Shown here piece after piece: positions 6,792 to 56,252 of a stretch of DNA of 64,000 nt. Within the stretch, counting starts at the first letter, position 1, and every line of letters starts with the position of its first letter. The translations under genes and the position numbers were made by a program. The notes beneath the pieces were generated by a model, which searched no databases, was not told where the DNA came from, and saw nothing but the letters and a program-made list of their open reading frames with translations. This stretch comes from Magnetospirillum gryphiswaldense MSR-1 v2 (GTDB lineage: Bacteria > Pseudomonadota > Alphaproteobacteria > Rhodospirillales > Magnetospirillaceae), in NCBI RefSeq assembly GCF_000513295.1, contig NC_023065.1, positions 3,704,501 to 3,768,500 of the forward strand, written 5' to 3'.

Positions 6792-8159
6792 TCAATAAGC
6801 CGGCTCGCCGCCGGCCGGTGGCGGCACCGGGACGCCTTCCTCGGAATACTGCTTCAACTTGTTACGCAGCGTACGGATGGAGATGCCCAGGATATTGGCG
6901 GCATGGGTGCGGTTGCCCAGGCAATGGGACAGTGTGTCGATGATGAGGTCGCGTTCCACCGCCGCCACGGTCTTGCCCACCAGACCGCTGGTGTTGCCGC
7001 CCATGACCGATTGCGCCACCTGGGCCACCTGCGCCACCACCGGGTCTTGCTGACCGCCCAAAGGGGCGCCGGTCAACAGGATGGCCTCGGGGCCGATCTC
7101 GTTGCCGTTGGCCAGCAGCACGGCGCGATGCATGGTGTTTTCCAGCTCGCGCACATTGCCGCGCCAGGAATGGCGGACCAGCATCTGGCGGGCCTCAGGG
7201 GTGATGGGCCGGGCCGGCACGCCGTTGATCTCGGCGTATTTGCGACCGAAATGATCGGCGAGGACAGCGATGTCGAGGGGACGTTCGCGCAAGGACGGCA
7301 GGATCAGGTTGACCACGTTCAGGCGGTAATACAGATCCTCGCGGAAACCGCCCTGGCGGACATATTCCTCCAGGTTGCGGTTGGAGGTGGCGACGATGCG
7401 CACATCGATCTTAACCGGCTGGCCGCCGCCGACACGGTCGATTTCCTTCTCCTGGATGGCGCGCAGCAATTTGGCTTGCAGGCGGATATCCATTTCCGAG
7501 ATTTCGTCCAACAGCAGCGTGCCGCCGGTGGCTTCCTCGAACTTGCCGATGCGCCGGGCGACGGCACCGGTGAAGGCACCCTTCTCATGGCCGAAAAGCT
7601 CGCTTTCCAGCAGGTTCTCCGGGATGGCGGCGCAGTTGACGGCAACGAAACGGCCCTTGGCCCGGGGGCTTTTGTTGTGAATGAAACGGGCCATCAGCTC
7701 CTTGCCGGTGCCCGATTCGCCGGTCACCAGGATCGACGCATGCGAGCCGGCCACCTGCTCGGCCAACTTCATGGTTTGGATCATGCGCGGGTCTTTGTAG
7801 ATGATGGCATGATTTTCGTCGGTGACGGCGGCCAGGACGGCGGCGATCAGCTCGGCGTCGGGGGGGAGTGGAATATATTCCTTGGCACCGGCCTTGATGG
7901 CGCGTACGGCGGCGGAGGCGTCGGAGGCGATGCCGCAGGCGATCACCGGCAGGACGATGCGTTCGCTCTCCAGGCATTCGATCAGGCGATGGACGTCGCG
8001 GCGAACGTCGATCATCACCAGATCGGCGCCTTGGCCGCGCAGCACTTCCATGCCCTGGTCGACGTCCTCGGCGATGCTGACCTTGGCGCCGCGCGCCATG
8101 GCGATCTGGCTGGCGGCGCCGATCTGGCCGTCCATCGCCCCGATGATCAGAAGTCGCAT
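6792..8159 (-). CDS. flbD: FlbD-type sigma-54 activator of flagellar genes
   Basis: 455 residues in three domains: a receiver-like domain (1-105), an AAA+ sigma-54 activator domain (about 130-370) with Walker A GESGTGKE at 147-154 and the sigma-54-contacting GAFTGA motif, and a Fis-type helix-turn-helix at the C-terminus (THAANILGISIRTLRNKL). The receiver lacks the paired acidic residues near its start (it reads LLIIGAMDG) although an Asp remains at about 51, as in FlbD regulators that do not work as ordinary phosphorylated receivers. FlbD drives late flagellar class promoters with FliX in Caulobacter; the same role is inferred. A GGGGGCAGGGC ribosome site precedes the ATG. Confidence 0.88.
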   Translation of the reverse strand: MRLLIIGAMDGQIGAASQIAMARGAKVSIAEDVDQGMEVLRGQGADLVMIDVRRDVHRLIECLESERIVLPVIACGIASDASAAVRAIKAGAKEYIPLPPDAELIAAVLAAVTDENHAIIYKDPRMIQTMKLAEQVAGSHASILVTGESGTGKELMARFIHNKSPRAKGRFVAVNCAAIPENLLESELFGHEKGAFTGAVARRIGKFEEATGGTLLLDEISEMDIRLQAKLLRAIQEKEIDRVGGGQPVKIDVRIVATSNRNLEEYVRQGGFREDLYYRLNVVNLILPSLRERPLDIAVLADHFGRKYAEINGVPARPITPEARQMLVRHSWRGNVRELENTMHRAVLLANGNEIGPEAILLTGAPLGGQQDPVVAQVAQVAQSVMGGNTSGLVGKTVAAVERDLIIDTLSHCLGNRTHAANILGISIRTLRNKLKQYSEEGVPVPPPAGGEPAY

Positions 8160-49410: not shown

Positions 49411-49833
49411 ATGGTGGTGAAGGAAGAGGGGCCGTCGGGGTTCCAGCAATTATTGGGCTATCGCCTGACCGAATGGACCGAGGGTCAGGCGGTGCTGGAA
49501 CTGGATATGGACCACAAGCACACCAACCGCGCCGGCGTCCTCCATGGCGGCGTGCTGGCGACGCTGATCGACACCGCTTGCGGCTTCGCCGCCACCTTTT
49601 GCCCGCTGCCGGGGCGGGTGCGCCGGGTGGTGACGTTGTCGCTCACCACGAACTTTACCGGTCAGGCCCGCCACGGCACCTTGCGGGCGGTGGCGAAAAA
49701 GACCGGAGGCGGCTCGCGCATCGTGTTTTGTCAGGCCGATGTGGTGGATGAACACGGCAAGCTGATCGCCAGCGGCCAAGGGAGCTTCCGCTATCGCAGC
49801 GGCAGCGAGCATCCCGAGGGCGTGGCGTTATAA
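49411..49833 (+). CDS. PaaI-type hotdog-fold thioesterase
   Basis: 140 residues, one 4HBT domain. NRAGVLHGGVLATLIDTACGFAA is the characteristic segment with the HGG turn, and VVTLSLTTNFTGQARHG follows. It probably hydrolyses an acyl- or aryl-CoA; the substrate is unknown. A GGGAACGG ribosome site precedes the ATG. Confidence 0.88.
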   Translation: MVVKEEGPSGFQQLLGYRLTEWTEGQAVLELDMDHKHTNRAGVLHGGVLATLIDTACGFAATFCPLPGRVRRVVTLSLTTNFTGQARHGTLRAVAKKTGGGSRIVFCQADVVDEHGKLIASGQGSFRYRSGSEHPEGVAL

Positions 49834-50100
49834 GCCTCGGCGGGTACGGGGGGCGAGCAGCGTCACCGCCTGATGGCGGTAATCGGCCAGGGCCAGGGTG
49901 CGGCGGTGCAAGGTGCCGTCGATCATCGCTGGTGCCGCCTTCAGGTCGCGCCGCCGCCGGGCCGCTTGCGCCCGGCTTTCCGCCGCCAATCGGTCAAGTA
50001 ACCCCGATCCAGCCAAGCCATCGACACGATGGCGGGGAATGGGGCCGTCATAGCGGCGTTCAAGACCGGGGGCGGCAAGGTGGAGCAGGACGAAGCGCAT
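49828..50100 (-). CDS. Small basic protein of unknown function, possibly SOS-controlled
   Basis: 90 residues from ATG 50100. A short hydrophobic start (MRFVLLHLAAPG) is followed by a strongly basic, Arg-rich rest (LAAESRAQAARRRRDLKAAP and a final TLLAPRTRRGL). I recognise no family. A GTTC-N7-GTTC box lies 12 bases upstream of its start, reading toward it. It overlaps the convergent thioesterase by six bases. It could be a phage-derived gene, a damage-response peptide or, less likely, an unexpressed frame. Confidence 0.5.
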   Translation of the reverse strand: MRFVLLHLAAPGLERRYDGPIPRHRVDGLAGSGLLDRLAAESRAQAARRRRDLKAAPAMIDGTLHRRTLALADYRHQAVTLLAPRTRRGL

Positions 50101-50111
50101 GGCCCCACTAA

Positions 50112-50126
50112 GAACATAAGTAGAAC
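50112..50126 (-). promoter_or_regulatory. SOS-box-like direct repeat GTTC-N7-GTTC (minus strand)
   Basis: On the minus strand it reads GTTCTACTTATGTTC, the form of the alphaproteobacterial LexA site. It lies between the repressor gene stop and the start of the small basic protein. A second box with the same last seven bases (TATGTTC) is at 50869. Confidence 0.5.
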
Positions 50127-50140
50127 AAATTTGCAAACTG

Positions 50141-50779
50141 CTATTGGCTGGCCCAGAGGATGCGGGCCAACCACGAGACCTCTTCCGCCGCCAGCGAGCG
50201 GCCCGGATGGGCCGGGTTGAGCGAGGCTAACTCGATGCGCTTGGCGGTCTGGCGGATCAGTTGCTTGACCATCACCTCGCCCTCAAGGGTCTTGACCACC
50301 ACACGGTCACCACGGCGCACCGACGCGGCGGGGGAGACGATGACGATGTCGCCGTCACGGTACAGGGGTTCCATGCTGTCGCCGGACACTTCCAGGGCAT
50401 AGGCGTTGCTGTCGCCCACCTCGGGGAAGGGAATCTCGTCCCAGCCGCCGCCGCACGGATAGCCGGCATCGTCGAAATAGCCGCGATCGCCCGCCTGGGC
50501 CGAGCCGATCAGCGGAATGGTCGCCCCCTTGACCACCGGGGCCGGCAACGAATCATCGATGTAGTTGAGCAATTGCCCCAGGCTGGAGCCGGTGGCGTCG
50601 AGAACCTTGGCCACGCTCTCCGTCGACGGCCAGCGCAATTTACCCTCGCGGGTGATGCGCTTGCTTTTGTTGAAGGTGGTGGGGTCCAGCCCGGCCCGCC
50701 GGGCAAGCGCCGACGCCGTCAACCCGTTGTCGCGGGCAAGGGAATCAAGAGCGGCCCAGATATCGGCATGCGTCAACAT
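50141..50779 (-). CDS. S24-family (CI/LexA-like) self-cleaving repressor
   Basis: 212 residues from ATG 50779, which has GGGGGAT upstream; a TTG 18 bases earlier is possible. The N-terminal helix-turn-helix (DNGLTASALARRAGLDPTTFNKSKRI) is of phage-repressor rather than LexA type. The C-terminal peptidase has the Ala-Gly cleavage site IGSAQAGDRG, the Ser in EVSGDSMEPLYRDGD and the Lys in VVVKTLEGEVMV. RecA filaments should trigger its self-cleavage. It faces away from the phage genes across a 122-base gap. Confidence 0.85.
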   Translation of the reverse strand: MLTHADIWAALDSLARDNGLTASALARRAGLDPTTFNKSKRITREGKLRWPSTESVAKVLDATGSSLGQLLNYIDDSLPAPVVKGATIPLIGSAQAGDRGYFDDAGYPCGGGWDEIPFPEVGDSNAYALEVSGDSMEPLYRDGDIVIVSPAASVRRGDRVVVKTLEGEVMVKQLIRQTAKRIELASLNPAHPGRSLAAEEVSWLARILWASQ

Positions 50780-50868
50780 GGGAAGATCATCCCCCAATCT
50801 CCCAACGAAGACATCAGGAATAATAGCCTAAGAATGCTTGACATGACTCCGCAACCCATGGAATCAGT

Positions 50869-50883
50869 GTTCATTATATGTTC
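50869..50883 (+). promoter_or_regulatory. SOS-box-like direct repeat GTTC-N7-GTTC (plus strand)
   Basis: GTTCATTATATGTTC, 18 bases before the first gene of the phage module. A perfect TTGACA -35 hexamer is at 50838-50843, but I see no good -10 at 16-18 bases from it. The box could bind LexA or the neighbouring S24 repressor. Confidence 0.55.
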
Positions 50884-50901: not shown

Positions 50902-51267
50902 ATGGCTCGACCGCGCTTCATGCCGCGTCCATTGCAGGGTGGCGCCACCCAGCCGTTCAGCACTGCCGAAGAGGCATGGCTGTGGTATGCCCATTGTCAA
51001 TTGGCCCGCCTGGCCGGTTGCCGGCCCCGTCCCGACATGGGCGAGGTTTCCCGCCCCTGCGACCCCGACGATATCCACCGCGAGGTCATGCGGTTGTTCC
51101 GCCTGAACCGTTTGCAGGCCGAGCACCTGCGCACCCTGGCTGAGCTGGGTACCCGGCTGGCTGGCGAAAATGCCGCCGTCACGTGGTCGGACAGCCAGGA
51201 CAAATTGTGGTGCGAGGCCTTGGATCGCCTAGAAACATCGTTACGGATCAAGGGGATCGTCGGATGA
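50902..51267 (+). CDS. Hypothetical protein, first gene of phage module
   Basis: 121 residues. MARPRFMPRPLQGGATQPFSTAEEAWLWY then a helical rest with TLAELGTRLAGENAAVTW. No family recognised, though small proteins of this kind often precede podovirus-like virion genes. A GGGGG ribosome site lies before the ATG. The stop overlaps the next start (ATGA). Confidence 0.65.
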   Translation: MARPRFMPRPLQGGATQPFSTAEEAWLWYAHCQLARLAGCRPRPDMGEVSRPCDPDDIHREVMRLFRLNRLQAEHLRTLAELGTRLAGENAAVTWSDSQDKLWCEALDRLETSLRIKGIVG

Positions 51268-51635
51268 TGCGGCCGCCTGATGTTCTGGTTGGTTTTGTCG
51301 GTCATACCGATCTGTGGTGGTTGCGGCTGCTGCGTCCCGGCTTTCGCCATTGCTTCGCCGCCATCCGCCAGGGTCCGGTCTGGGTGGTGATCGACCCCAT
51401 GTCGCATCATACGCTGATGCGGGTGGAATCCTGCCCCGACCTGATGGCGTTTTACGTCAGTCGCGGCATCACCGTGGTCGCCACCCGGTTACGCCCGCCG
51501 CCGCACCGTCCGGCGCCCTGGCGTCCCTATACCTGCGTCGAGGCGGTCAAGCGATTGTTGGGCTTGCCGGCACCCTGGGTGTTGACGCCGTGGCAATTGT
51601 ACAAATTCCTAAAATATCAGGAAAAAATGCCTTGA
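51264..51635 (+). CDS. Hypothetical protein, second gene of phage module
   Basis: 123 residues. DLWWLRLLRPGFRHCFAAIR, then WVVIDPMSHHTLMRVE and a C-terminal YTCVEAVKRLLG followed by LTPWQLYKFLKY. The conserved-looking Cys and His residues are compatible with a papain-like (NlpC-related) fold, but this is a guess. It is translationally coupled to the gene before it. Confidence 0.6.
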   Translation: MMRPPDVLVGFVGHTDLWWLRLLRPGFRHCFAAIRQGPVWVVIDPMSHHTLMRVESCPDLMAFYVSRGITVVATRLRPPPHRPAPWRPYTCVEAVKRLLGLPAPWVLTPWQLYKFLKYQEKMP

Positions 51636-51762: not shown

Positions 51763-51966
51763 ATGGGTGGATTTTTTGGCGGCGCCCCGGAAGTGCCGGC
51801 CCCGGCGCCATTGCCGCCGGTGACCGATCCCGAGGACGAGGCGCGCACGCAACGTCTGGAAACCATGTCGCGCAACCGCCGTGGCCGCCAGGGCATGGTC
51901 GCCACCAGCGATCGCGGCGTGCTGGCCCCGGCTGCCAGCGACGGCAAACGCCTGTTGGGGGAATGA
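51763..51966 (+). CDS. Small phage-type protein
   Basis: 67 residues. A Pro-rich start (MGGFFGGAPEVPAPAPLPPV) and a basic end (SRNRRGRQGMVATSDRGVL). Proteins of this size and pattern commonly sit directly before podovirus connector genes. A GGAGGG ribosome site precedes the ATG. The 127-base gap upstream holds a weak stem followed by TTTTTT near 51717. Confidence 0.6.
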   Translation: MGGFFGGAPEVPAPAPLPPVTDPEDEARTQRLETMSRNRRGRQGMVATSDRGVLAPAASDGKRLLGE

Positions 51967-51967
51967 G

Positions 51968-53476
51968 ATGACCGACGTCAATCATCCGCTGGGGCCGGAC
52001 CACCAATCGGGCCATCTGCGCCAGCGTTACCGCAAGGCCAAGGAACGGCGCGCCACCTGGGAAGCCCATTGGCAGGAATGTTACGATTACGCCCTGCCGC
52101 TGCGCGACGCCGTGCTGCACCAACCCAATCCGGGCGAGAAAAAGGGCGACCGCCTGTTCGACGGCACCGCCGCCGATGCCGTCGACCAACTGGCCGCCAG
52201 CCTGTTGTCGGAACTGACCCCGCCGTGGGCGCAATGGTTCGGCCTGACCGCCGGTCCCGATCTGGACGAGGCCGAGCGCCAGCAGGTCGCCCCCTTACTC
52301 GACAAGGTCGGCGCCATCTTGCAAAGCCATTTCGACCGCTCCAACTTCGCGGTGGAAATGCATCAATGCTATCTCGACGTGGTCACCGGCGGCACCGCCT
52401 GCCTGTTGTTCGAGGAGGCGCAGCCGGGCGAGGCCTCGGCCTTTCGCTTCACCGCCGTCCCCTTGGCCCAGGCGGTGCTGGAGGAAGGCCCCGACGGCAA
52501 GTTGGACAGCAGCTTTCGCCGTAGCGAGCTGGCGCTGGCCGCCTTGCGGCAACGCTTCCCCGCCGCTCAGTTGGATCCGTCGCTGATCCGCCGGGGCGAG
52601 GAAGACCCGCAGGCCCGCTTCGCCGTCATCGAGGCGGTGATCCCCAACCAGCGCGGCCATTACGATTATGCCGCCATCCTGGAAGACGCCGGCGATGACG
52701 ACGAAGCCCTGCTGGCCGAGGGCCGCTTCGGTCAGTCGCCCTTCATCAATTTCCGCTGGCTGAAGGCGCCGGGGGAAATCTATGGCCGTTCGCCGGTGAT
52801 GAAGGCGCTGCCCGACATCAAGACCGCCAACAAGGTGGTGGAACTGGTGCTGAAAAACGCCACCATCGCCGTCACCGGCATTTGGCAGGCCGATGATGAC
52901 GGCGTGCTCAACCCGGCCAACATCAAGCTGATCCCCGGCACCATCATCCCCAAGGCGGTGGGCTCGGCCGGGTTGCAGCCGCTGGAAAGTCCGGGCCGCT
53001 TCGACATTTCGCAACTGGTCCTCGACGATCTGCGCGGGCGCATCCGCCATGCCTTGCTGGCCGACAAGCTGGGGCAGGCCGACAACCCCAAGATGACGGC
53101 GACCGAGGTGTTGGAACGCTCCGCCGACATGGCCCGCCTGCTCGGGGCCACCTATGGCCGTCTGCAATCGGAACTGCTGACGCCGTTGATCCTGCGCGCC
53201 GTCACCATCTTGCGCCGGCGCGGCGAAATCCCGCCGCTGTTGGTCGACGGCCATCTGGTCGAGTTGCAGTACCGCTCGCCCCTGGCCCAATCCCAGGCCC
53301 AGCGCGACGCCCACAACGTGCTGAGCTGGCTGTCGGCGCTGGCCCAACTCGGCCCCGCCGGCATGGCGGTGGTCGATCCCGCCGCCGCTGCCCAATGGCT
53401 GGGCCGCGCCTTCAACATCCCCGCCGATCTGATGGTGGCACAGCAAAACCCGGAGAACGTCCATGTCCAAATCTGA
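51968..53476 (+). CDS. Podovirus-type head-to-tail connector (portal) protein
   Basis: 502 residues, intact. The beginning (LRQRYRKAKERRATWEAHWQECYDYALP, DRLFDGTAADAVDQLAASLLSEL) and the middle (IYGRSPVMKALPDIKTANKVVE, TATEVLERSADMARLLGATYGRLQSELL) match the T7-like head-tail connector family (PF12236). It would form the dodecameric portal through which DNA enters the capsid. A GGGGGAATGAG ribosome site precedes the ATG; the end overlaps the next gene by 14 bases. Confidence 0.88.
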   Translation: MTDVNHPLGPDHQSGHLRQRYRKAKERRATWEAHWQECYDYALPLRDAVLHQPNPGEKKGDRLFDGTAADAVDQLAASLLSELTPPWAQWFGLTAGPDLDEAERQQVAPLLDKVGAILQSHFDRSNFAVEMHQCYLDVVTGGTACLLFEEAQPGEASAFRFTAVPLAQAVLEEGPDGKLDSSFRRSELALAALRQRFPAAQLDPSLIRRGEEDPQARFAVIEAVIPNQRGHYDYAAILEDAGDDDEALLAEGRFGQSPFINFRWLKAPGEIYGRSPVMKALPDIKTANKVVELVLKNATIAVTGIWQADDDGVLNPANIKLIPGTIIPKAVGSAGLQPLESPGRFDISQLVLDDLRGRIRHALLADKLGQADNPKMTATEVLERSADMARLLGATYGRLQSELLTPLILRAVTILRRRGEIPPLLVDGHLVELQYRSPLAQSQAQRDAHNVLSWLSALAQLGPAGMAVVDPAAAAQWLGRAFNIPADLMVAQQNPENVHVQI

Positions 53477-53735
53477 TCCCGGCTGGGACTGGTTCGCGCC
53501 GCCCGCCCCGCCCGACAATGCCCAGCGGCTGGCGGTGGCCCGCGCCTTTGCCCGGGCTTTTTCCGGCGCCGACGGCGATCTGGCCCTGGCCCATCTGCGC
53601 AGCCTCACCCTTGACCGCTGTCTCGGTCCCGATGCCAGCGACGCGGCGCTGCGCTGCCTGGAGGGCCAGCGCCTGCTGGCCGCCCATATCCTGTCGCTGG
53701 TCGAACGCGGCCGCGACGGCTCTCTTTACGCTTGA
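53463..53735 (+). CDS. Bbp19-like phage protein
   Basis: 90 residues. The core LAHLRSLTLDRCLGPDASDAALRCLEGQRLLAAHILSLVERGR is the pattern of the Bbp19 phage protein family, which in related phages sits beside the connector gene. The exact function is unknown. It starts inside the end of the connector gene. Confidence 0.7.
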   Translation: MSKSDPGWDWFAPPAPPDNAQRLAVARAFARAFSGADGDLALAHLRSLTLDRCLGPDASDAALRCLEGQRLLAAHILSLVERGRDGSLYA

Positions 53736-53750
53736 TCAGGAGAACAACAG

Positions 53751-54473
53751 ATGTACTACGAAGATTCCCTGCCGCCCGAACCGGAGATGCCGATCAGCAC
53801 CGCCATCCCGGAAAAGTTCCGCGATCCGGCCACCGGCGCCTTGCGCACCGATGCCTTGCTGCGCGCCTATCAGGAGTTGGAGCGCCGCATGCATCGCATG
53901 GTGGAAATCCCCGGCGACGATTGCTCCGACGAACAGCGTTGCGCCTTTCACCGGGCCCTGGGGGTACCGGAAAGCCCCGAGCAATACAGCATCGAACAGC
54001 GCCACCCCATGCTGAGCCCCGATGCCGAGGTCAACCGCCTGCTGCATCAGGCCGGCTTCACCCCCAAGCAGGCGCAGTTGGTCTATGATCTGGCCCATCA
54101 GCGGGTGATTCCGACGTTGGAACAGATGGCCGGTGAGTTCGAAAGCCAGCGTAGCCTGGAACGTCTGCGCGACCATTTCGGCGGCGAGGCCAAATGGGCG
54201 GAAACCGCCCGTCAGGTTCAGGCCTGGGGTCAGGCCAATCTGTCGGCGGAATTGTACGAGGCCTTGTCCGCTTCCGCCGACGGCATCATCGCCATGCGCG
54301 CCATGATGAATTCGGGCGAGCCCAGCATGGGCCGCACCGCCACCCCACGCGAAGACGAGCCGTCGGAAGACGATCTGAAGCAGATGCTGCAAGATCCGCG
54401 CTATTGGAAAAAGCGCGATCCCGCCTTCATCGCCAAGGTCTCGGCCGGTTTCCGCCGCCTGTCGGGAGAGTGA
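53751..54473 (+). CDS. Phage capsid-assembly (scaffold-like) protein
   Basis: 240 residues, acidic and helical. Pattern: MYYEDSLPPEPEMPISTAIPEKFRDPATG, a long helical middle, and a C-terminus LQDPRYWKKRDPAFIAKVSAGFRRL that is common to T7-like scaffold/capsid-assembly proteins. It would guide procapsid assembly and leave. No major capsid gene follows, where one would be expected. Confidence 0.7.
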   Translation: MYYEDSLPPEPEMPISTAIPEKFRDPATGALRTDALLRAYQELERRMHRMVEIPGDDCSDEQRCAFHRALGVPESPEQYSIEQRHPMLSPDAEVNRLLHQAGFTPKQAQLVYDLAHQRVIPTLEQMAGEFESQRSLERLRDHFGGEAKWAETARQVQAWGQANLSAELYEALSASADGIIAMRAMMNSGEPSMGRTATPREDEPSEDDLKQMLQDPRYWKKRDPAFIAKVSAGFRRLSGE

Positions 54474-54560: not shown

Positions 54561-55187
54561 ATGCTGTCGGTACTGGTCGGGAACATCAAGGGCGGCTGCG
54601 GCAAGACCACCATCGCCACCCATCTGGCGTCGTCCTTCGCCGCCACCGGCCTGTCCACGATCATCGCCGATTGCGACCGACAGAAATCGTCGCTCAACTG
54701 GCTAAAGCGCCGCGACGAGGCCGCCCCCACCATCACCGGTCTGGATTGGTCCAAGACTTTGGGCAATCCGCCCAAGGGCATCGACCGGCTGGTCATCGAC
54801 GCTCCCGCCGCCATGCATCATGACGACGTGGAGGATTTGATCGCCATCGCCGACGTGGTGGTGGTGCCGGTCCTGCCCGGCGCCTTCGACCAGGATGCCA
54901 CCGCCCATTTCCTCAAGAAGCTGTCGGCGGTCAAGGCGGTGCGCAAGAACAAGCGGGTGGTGGCGATCATCGGCAACCGCCTGCGCCTGGGGGCCAAGGC
55001 GACAGAACAACTGGACGTGTTCTTCGAATCCCTGGGCTTTCCGGTGGTGGCGCGACTGCGCGACAGCCAGATTTATCCGACCACCGCGGCCCTGGGCTCG
55101 TCGGTCCTGGAATCCAGGGACCGCCGCGCCCGCGATTATGCCGCCGAATGGACGCCGCTTTTGGATCTGCTGGCCCGCCAAGGTTAG
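54561..55187 (+). CDS. ParA-family partition ATPase
   Basis: 208 residues. The deviant Walker A GNIKGGCGKTTIATHLASSF lies at the very start, so there is no N-terminal DNA-binding domain. DRLVIDAPAAMHHDDVEDLI gives the Walker B region. No ParB or parS-like repeat was seen beside it, so the partner is elsewhere or the protein has another cargo. Its TAG stop (55185-55187) is made from the TA target and the first base of IS copy B; without the IS the stop is TAA, so the protein is unchanged. Confidence 0.85.
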   Translation: MLSVLVGNIKGGCGKTTIATHLASSFAATGLSTIIADCDRQKSSLNWLKRRDEAAPTITGLDWSKTLGNPPKGIDRLVIDAPAAMHHDDVEDLIAIADVVVVPVLPGAFDQDATAHFLKKLSAVKAVRKNKRVVAIIGNRLRLGAKATEQLDVFFESLGFPVVARLRDSQIYPTTAALGSSVLESRDRRARDYAAEWTPLLDLLARQG

Positions 55188-56252
55188 AGCGGTTTCACGC
55201 CGAGCGGAATCGGTAGAGGATTCCCCCTGAGGTCATTTTGTGATTCAACATCTTCGGTAACAACGCTCCCGAGGATGATGCGATGACGTGGCGCTCAGGG
55301 CAGTCCTATTCTCAGGACTTGCGCGATAGAGTTTTGGCGGCTGTGGACAGCGGCATGAGCGCCTACGAGGTGGCGCCGCTGTTCCGGGTGAGCGTTTCGT
55401 ACATCTACAAGGCCCAAGGCCGCCGCCGGGCCACCGGCGAGACGACGGTGAAGCCACGGCCTGGGCGGCCAGGACAGAAGCTGGCGGCTCACCTTGAGGC
55501 GTTGCAGGCGCAGATCAAGGTCGAGCCCGATGCCACGCTGGCTGAGTTGCGCGCCTGGGTTCTGGCCGAATTGGGCGTGTCGATCAGCGTCGGCGGCCTG
55601 TGGAACACGCTTGAGCGGCTCGACCTCAGTCTGAAAAAAAGAGTGCGCATGCTGCCGAGCAGGAACGTCCCGACGTAGCCGAAGGACGCATCGCCTGGCG
55701 AGCCGAGCAGCCGGCGCTGGACCCAACCCGCTTGGTCTTCCTTGATGAAACCGGGGCATCGACCAACATGACCCGGCGCTACGGACGGGCGCCGCGCGGT
55801 CAGCGGCTGCTGGCTGCGGTGCCGCACGGTCATTGGAAAATGACCACCTTCGTCGGGGCGCTCCGGCATGACGGAATCTCCGCCCCCTTCGTCATCGACA
55901 AGGCGATGAATGGCGCGATCTTCCTGGCCTATGTCGAGCAGGTCCTGGCTCCGACCTTGCGGCCCGGCGACATCGTCGTAATGGACAATCTGCCCGCCCA
56001 CAAGGTGGCAGGGGTCAAGCAACTCATCGAAGCCCGAGGGGCCACCCTGCGGTATCTGCCGCCCTACTCCCCAGACCTCAATCCCATCGAGCTCGCCTTC
56101 GCCAAGCTCAAGAGCCTGCTGCGAAAGGCGCAAGCCCGCACCATCAACACCTTATGGGACGTGATCGGAAAACTCATCGACCTGTTTCCGCCCGAGGAAT
56201 GCGCCAATTTCTTCGCCCACGACGGATATGGACGCTCGATGTGAAAATGCTC
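55187..56252 (+). mobile_element. IS630-family insertion sequence, copy B
   Basis: A second 1066-bp copy, in the same orientation as copy A and with the same ends and predicted proteins. TA flanks at 55185-55186 and 56253-56254. It lies in the stop codon of the ParA gene. Identity suggests recent transposition of one from the other or from a common source. Confidence 0.95.
55283..56244 (+). CDS. IS630-family transposase, two frames joined by -1 frameshift (copy B)
   Basis: Same split as copy A: frame one 55283-55678, frame two to 56244, joined by slippage on the A-run at 55634-55641. The DDE residues and the helix-turn-helix are intact in both frames, so it may be active. The fact that both copies have the split argues that it is the functional arrangement and not damage. 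Confidence 0.9.

Follow-up and report, generated by a model that had tools for sequence, protein, structure and literature searches.

The 64,000-nucleotide stretch of the Magnetospirillum gryphiswaldense MSR-1 v2 chromosome analysed here (the window; contig NC_023065.1, positions 3,704,501 to 3,768,500) contains the gene of an S24 repressor, flanked by two sequences of the form GTTC-N7-GTTC and followed on one side by phage genes. The locus raises the question of what these boxes govern, which protein is likely to bind them, and whether the phage genes are those of an ordinary prophage. The preliminary description had placed two boxes of LexA form on opposite strands around the repressor gene, each before a gene start, and these coordinates were confirmed. 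The features of the switch region, in window positions, are:

49828-50100, minus strand: small basic gene, 90 amino acids, with an alternative TTG start at 50136
50112-50126, minus strand: LexA-type box GTTCTACTTATGTTC, an exact GTTC-N7-GTTC in front of the small basic gene
50141-50797, minus strand: S24 self-cleaving-type repressor (HTH_26 and Peptidase_S24), likely ATG start at 50779
50838-50843, plus strand: putative -35 element TTGACA of the orf121 operon, with a weak -10
50869-50883, plus strand: LexA-type box GTTCATTATATGTTC, an exact GTTC-N7-GTTC lying over the putative start region in the promoter of the orf121 operon
50902-51267, plus strand: orf121, a conserved helical protein (AlphaFold pLDDT 85), first gene of the operon
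51264-51635, plus strand: orf122, a conserved small protein (predicted structure, pLDDT 86)

The end of the minus box is 11 nt from the likely ATG of the small basic gene (50100), and that of the plus box 18 nt from the ATG of orf121 (50902). Structure searches with orf121 and orf122 gave no PDB match with E <= 0.001.

By number alone the boxes are not exceptional. About two such motifs had been expected by chance per 64 kb, in agreement with our computed expectation of 1.65; the window holds three, and three or more were obtained in 25 of 100 shuffles. The genome-wide count that had been proposed was carried out on the single contig of 4,365,796 bases and yielded 84 sites, compared with 122 for the reversed control pattern, and enrichment of the motif by count was rejected at both scales. 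Composition tells more, the spacers of the window pair being unusual in a GC-rich genome. Spacers with at most one G or C occur in 5 of the 84 genome sites, against 0.98 expected from base composition, and the window pair are two of those five; with at most two G or C the figures are 11 sites and 5.7. The window boxes exceed chance in spacer composition, position and conservation, not in number. Their correct direction, which had been offered as further support, carries little weight, because a site at a third locus of what seems to be the same regulon runs the other way round.

In relatives, the plus box has a fixed position on the upstream side of the S24 start, at a distance of about 70-80 bp, and the minus box has one by the small gene, while the seven bases of the spacer vary. 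We counted 42 related S24 loci, of which 30 are cluster-bearing (orf121, orf122 or portal visible) and 12 are S24-only, some of the latter ending 0.9-1.5 kb upstream of S24. An exact box stands upstream of S24 in 18 of the 30 and in none of the 12 (Fisher p 0.0003, kinship ignored). Named genomes, sampled as the best 80 of 549 confirmed relatives, provided 74 assessable loci, 37 of which have an exact box in the S24/orf121 promoter region, where the background in the same loci is 0.0091 per 260 bp; the exact box is absent from the other 37, as it is from 12 of the 30 cluster-bearing loci above. Upstream of the box, TTGA[CT] is found in 54 of 56 box-bearing loci, with a spacing of 30-34 bp in 39 of these 54. 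These sequence comparisons support assigning the plus box to the phage-derived operon. On the small-gene side, a minus-type box is present in 12 of the 42 related S24 loci, eleven of the same genus and one in G013.

The repressor itself had been said to carry all residues for RecA-stimulated self-cleavage, and this holds: the Ala-Gly site, the Ser and the Lys are present and conserved in most of 73 orthologues (Ala in 71, Gly in 66, Ser in 67 and Lys in 66). A near-full-length orthologue with at least 50% identity exists in 48 of 61 genomes, its own included, and a further one is truncated at the edge of a contig, while the best matches among 50,697 phage records stay below 60%. Because of this distribution of orthologues, S24 is, as judged by comparison of sequences, a conserved chromosomal regulator and not a recent prophage repressor.

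Motif discovery in 92 non-redundant upstream regions returned a palindrome, TAGGAAnATATTCCTA, as the putative S24 operator. Its correlation with its own reverse complement is 0.82, whereas 2000 column permutations gave a mean of 0.06 and a maximum of 0.57. The matrix was built from 82 non-redundant sites, with the window sites at 51618 and 51596 left out of it. The putative operators in the window are:

50815-50830, plus strand: putative S24 operator 1, CAGGAATAATAGCCTA, beside the S24 start, score 16.5
51596-51611, minus strand: putative S24 operator 3, TAGGAATTTGTACAAT, just before orf67-portal, score 13.3
51618-51633, plus strand: putative S24 operator 2, CAGGAAAAAATGCCTT, upstream of orf67-portal, score 16.4

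The palindrome beside S24 scores at least 12 in 67 of 73 named loci, which together with others built the matrix, and the second position, before orf67-portal, holds a site in 33 of these 73 loci against a background of 0.031 per 450 bp. Since the matrix derives from the 82 collected sites, autoregulation by S24 is something that we only infer. The palindrome is kept in 27 of the 30 cluster-bearing loci versus only 4 of the 12 S24-only loci, and so it gives no independent sign of a role for S24 outside the cluster. Taken as they stand, the predicted palindromic operators, distinct from the GTTC boxes, seem to be the sites through which S24 acts.

Operator-like matches scoring 12 or more number eight in 150,951 bases of the own genome, and four of them were taken as operators. 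Those set aside are GTGGAATATATTCCTT at window positions 7868-7883 (score 15.3), which is as good a match, lies away from the cluster and has no evident meaning, and the matches in the second module at L132 1409 (13.1) and L132 17396 (15.4, over a start codon) and at L274 11333 (12.7).

Downstream of orf122, the operon continues with genes of podovirus type:

51763-51966, plus strand: orf67 (phrog_831)
51968-53476, plus strand: portal, a head-to-tail connecting protein, PF12236 (E 3e-163)
53463-53735, plus strand: Bbp19-like phage protein, PF25181 (E 2e-14)
53751-54473, plus strand: scaffold-type capsid assembly protein, PF05396 (E 5e-17)
54561-55187, plus strand: ParA-like ATPase, after the operon and of doubtful membership

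The arrangement orf121-orf122-orf67-portal-Bbp19-scaffold behind S24 recurs unchanged in relatives at the genus, family and order level. The ParA-like ATPase, which in this clade comes after the scaffold gene, has a match in 7 of 40 stretches, in the same place in six and on the opposite side of S24 in L062. Reading frames of an IS630-type transposase adjoin the operon at window positions 55283-56244.

Capsid, tail and terminase genes are missing from the window. In the own genome, the terminase gene lies at 2,373,183-2,374,649 and the capsid gene at 2,385,582-2,386,397, about 1.37 Mb from the window locus; relatives of the two are present in 27 and 29 of 61 genomes, respectively. This second locus, extending from capsid to holin over about 2.372-2.387 Mb, also comprises a tail adaptor, a hub, four fibre genes and an endolysin, and its families include PF19821 for the capsid, phrog_38 for the terminase, PF07486 for the endolysin and PF11351, GTA_holin_3TM, for the holin (E 1e-15). 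The four tail-fibre-like genes stand in a row (L132 6046-13699), several with related starts, and may set the receptor range. Both halves form one cluster of roughly 20-30 kb in six relatives (G052, G060, G046, G044, G004 and G010). The gene order S24|orf121-orf122-orf67-portal-Bbp19-scaffold-capsid-tail-hub-fibres-terminase is common to all of these except G044, which has the same gene set but with the lysis genes between capsid and tail, and in which orf67 was not found.

A third locus, at about 4.097 Mb, encodes a 136-aa protein with a weak match (E 0.0096) to the internal virion protein phrog_418, and homologues of its gene sit, in L194, L226 and L203, between the hub and the fibres. Its promoter combines an operator, TAGGAAAATAGTCTTT (score 15.6), the hexamer TTTACA and a box, GAACAAACAACGAAC, an arrangement also found in G005. 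As it repeats the design of the window promoter, operator plus box, it strongly supports, in our view, the existence of one regulon. The three loci thus stand at about 3.755, 2.372-2.387 and 4.097 Mb. The true promoters aside, genome-wide searches with composite patterns gave about as many matches as the reversed control, and the capsid promoter of the own genome showed no GTTC box. Three candidate sites at the second locus were discarded: a GTTC site at 2,373,153, by the lysis genes, which overlaps a Shine-Dalgarno-like sequence and a start codon; a GTTC site at 2,387,540, which, relative to the reading direction of the capsid gene, is not upstream of it and for which conservation was not seen; and an operator-like match at the capsid start, which overlaps the ribosome site and the ATG.

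Our preferred reading, to which we give a probability of roughly 60%, is that the window locus would be the regulatory and head-assembly part of a domesticated, inherited particle of podovirus type, most likely a gene transfer agent (GTA) wired to the SOS response. A cryptic, decaying prophage, an old and functionless phage relic that retains some regulation, would account for a cluster broken into three places with an IS630 element alongside, for the loss of phage genes in several relatives and for family searches that recognised no integrase or replication gene among the adjacent genes; yet all 16 genes tested are open reading frames, and promoter sites show conservation across genera. Against five relatives, dN/dS of these genes ranges from 0.02 to 0.40, some genes being lacking in some relatives, the tail adaptor comparison in G008 spanning only 30 codons and that of orf122 with G004 being saturated. 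Their G+C content is 0.61-0.71, compared with 0.65 for the window. Decay is further contradicted by the pairwise identities of portal, capsid, terminase, hub and scaffold, which follow those of RecA with Spearman coefficients of 0.73-0.86 in 11-15 genomes, values as high occurring in at most 2 of 1000 permutations. We regard a decaying remnant as unlikely; by these sequence comparisons, the particle cluster is domesticated, vertically inherited and under purifying selection. A plain prophage was rejected because of S24 orthology, congruence with RecA and purifying selection taken together.

The same congruence with the host bears on a second alternative, namely that the genes belong to a still-mobile temperate or satellite phage family in which S24 would be a CI-type repressor and LexA the inducer. 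Relatives do have a full set of virion and lysis genes, and S24 has a likeness of 29% to podoviral repressors, BPP-1 being one example. Within the class, 95 of 337 genomes have a portal relative, which scores above 500 bits in 39 of them. Of the 1420 phage records that match the portal, a single one attains 60% identity, and it is an unannotated faecal contig. IMG/VR, which classes similar contigs as viral, contains at least 437 relatives, the best 80 of which have 59-82% portal identity; in these 80, S24 lies divergently upstream in 40 of the 45 where it is visible, with a box in 22 of the 40. An integrase domain was detected in 2 of 28 longer IMG/VR records, but the other 26 have no match, though they may be fragments. 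Moreover, the genes required are separated by 0.34-1.4 Mb or more in the own genome, and one particle could therefore not carry them. A mobile family appears improbable to us, and the IMG/VR contigs of the S24-orf121 type may be pieces of bacterial chromosomes, that is, GTA-like loci counted as viruses. Family searches of the annotated genes of the cluster and its neighbours recognised no self-propagation gene.

Several tail-fibre paralogues, the lysis genes and a promoter of damage type would also suit an SOS-induced killing particle, or another domesticated particle of the PBSX kind, which packages host DNA or nothing and has no role in gene transfer. Sequence does not separate such a particle from a GTA, but the holin, whose family is named after GTA release, leans weakly to the GTA, and we consider the killing particle quite improbable.

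As for the protein that binds the boxes, GTTC-N7-GTTC is also present in front of lexA, two copies of umuDC and an imuA-like gene in the own genome (SOS gene names besides lexA and umuD were assigned by eye from the protein start), which, together with the conserved position in relatives, bears out the LexA-box form ascribed to the sites; no such box was seen in the recA stretch examined. The window boxes are very probably LexA operators, as predicted, and they are most likely LexA's because S24 has its own, different palindromic operator. That they are instead operators of S24, whose gene they flank and which, like LexA, has an S24 domain, is very unlikely in view of the motif at lexA, umuDC and the imuA-like gene and of the different conserved palindrome adjoining the S24 start. 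The proposal of a damage-inducible divergent switch survives in part: the boxes are predicted LexA operators and the self-cleavage residues are kept, but a simple prophage-style switch through these two boxes is not supported, because S24 has another operator and is a conserved chromosomal regulator, and because the phage genes form a split, inherited cluster.

Elsewhere in the genome, the two umuDC copies are near-identical (L001 and L002, at genome positions 2017349 and 2538908), and their LexA-type boxes differ by one base. An AT-rich GTTC-N7-GTTC at 4158535 (L147 1536), between a radical-SAM-like gene and a divergent gene, is a candidate SOS target.

For the SOS-wired gene transfer agent, the following mechanism can be proposed. 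LexA would shut the promoter of the orf121 operon through its GTTC-N7-GTTC box, with S24 as an additional lock that acts on its palindromic operators, both at this promoter and ahead of orf67-portal. Upon DNA damage LexA would be released, and probably also S24, by RecA-stimulated self-cleavage, so that orf121-orf122 would be freed first and the head operon once S24 is cleaved or overcome; it is a guess that orf121 or orf122 counteracts S24. The cell would then produce proteins for head, tail, packaging and lysis, and particles with host DNA would escape as it lyses. We hold at even odds the broader claim that this is a third kind of alphaproteobacterial GTA, of podovirus type, class-wide and under a double lock of LexA and S24, with damaged cells releasing host-DNA particles and with three loci that, in this species, would be joined only by shared promoter sites.

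RcGTA has a siphovirus-like head of HK97 type. RcGTA-type head proteins, as the families of that agent are generally known, were not found here, the portal (PF12236) and the capsid (PF19821) being of podovirus type. RcGTA-like agents (Rhodogtaviriformidae) nevertheless share with the present locus virion genes of phage origin spread over several loci of an alphaproteobacterium, and lysis genes that include a GTA_holin_3TM holin. Passages of PMC10883770 describe their co-evolution with the host. According to passages of PMC6473078, the RcGTA switch consists of CtrA and GafA, in contrast with the LexA box and S24 here; for Dinoroseobacter shibae, the same source reports a LexA site predicted at the GTA cluster and proposes a LexA input, so that a link between LexA and a GTA has been suggested before. 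BaGTA (Bartogtaviriformidae) likewise consists of alphaproteobacterial particle genes maintained with the host, and the portions of PMC9662315 that treat it mention an HK97-type capsid, a virus-derived replication origin and neighbouring secretion genes; the present cluster differs in being of podovirus type and unrelated by the families found. That classification has families for RcGTA, BaGTA and BhGTA, and in a term search of its text podoviruses came up only within a reference title.

PBSX of Bacillus subtilis is a conserved, SOS-induced defective particle with its own repressor. In these traits, as generally known, it resembles the reading proposed here, and it differs in host phylum and in particle type. 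BPP-1-like podoviruses share the Bbp19-like protein, the PF12236 portal and a CI repressor, equipped with an S24 domain, at 29% identity to S24, and the overall likeness of the cluster to BPP-1 is in part a matter of general knowledge; what sets the present genes apart is vertical inheritance, the division over three loci and the finding of no integration or replication genes with the cluster. Comparable, too, are the podovirus lineages of the PhiGT1 study, passages of which (PMC10386132) describe podoviral structure modules in alphaproteobacteria that descend vertically, as here, and persist patchily. This study covers phages and prophages, and a term search of its text returned no gene transfer agents, Rhodospirillales or Magnetospirillum. 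Sections of a prophage survey of M. gryphiswaldense (PMC7860042) report seven PHAST regions, of which one may become active after mitomycin C; neither gene transfer nor GTA occurs as a term in the text searched.

No podovirus-type GTA of this group turned up among the entries listed by full-text searches of one open-access library. As the best reading of the locus, an SOS-wired GTA of podovirus type would be unlike RcGTA, BaGTA and BhGTA. If it is correct, a class that includes the laboratory-friendly Magnetospirillum and Azospirillum carries a GTA outside the three families named in the consulted parts of PMC9662315. The trigger of this GTA would be direct, namely DNA damage, and the long-standing question whether GTAs exist to supply repair templates to damaged populations would become testable. 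Similar contigs counted as viruses in metagenome collections would in part be bacterial genes.

The small basic gene on the other side of the repressor adjoins S24 in 13 of the 61 genomes searched and has a dN/dS of 0.26-0.40 in four relatives. With its conserved LexA-type box and a conserved ERRYDGPIP-like motif, it could encode an SOS-induced small protein.
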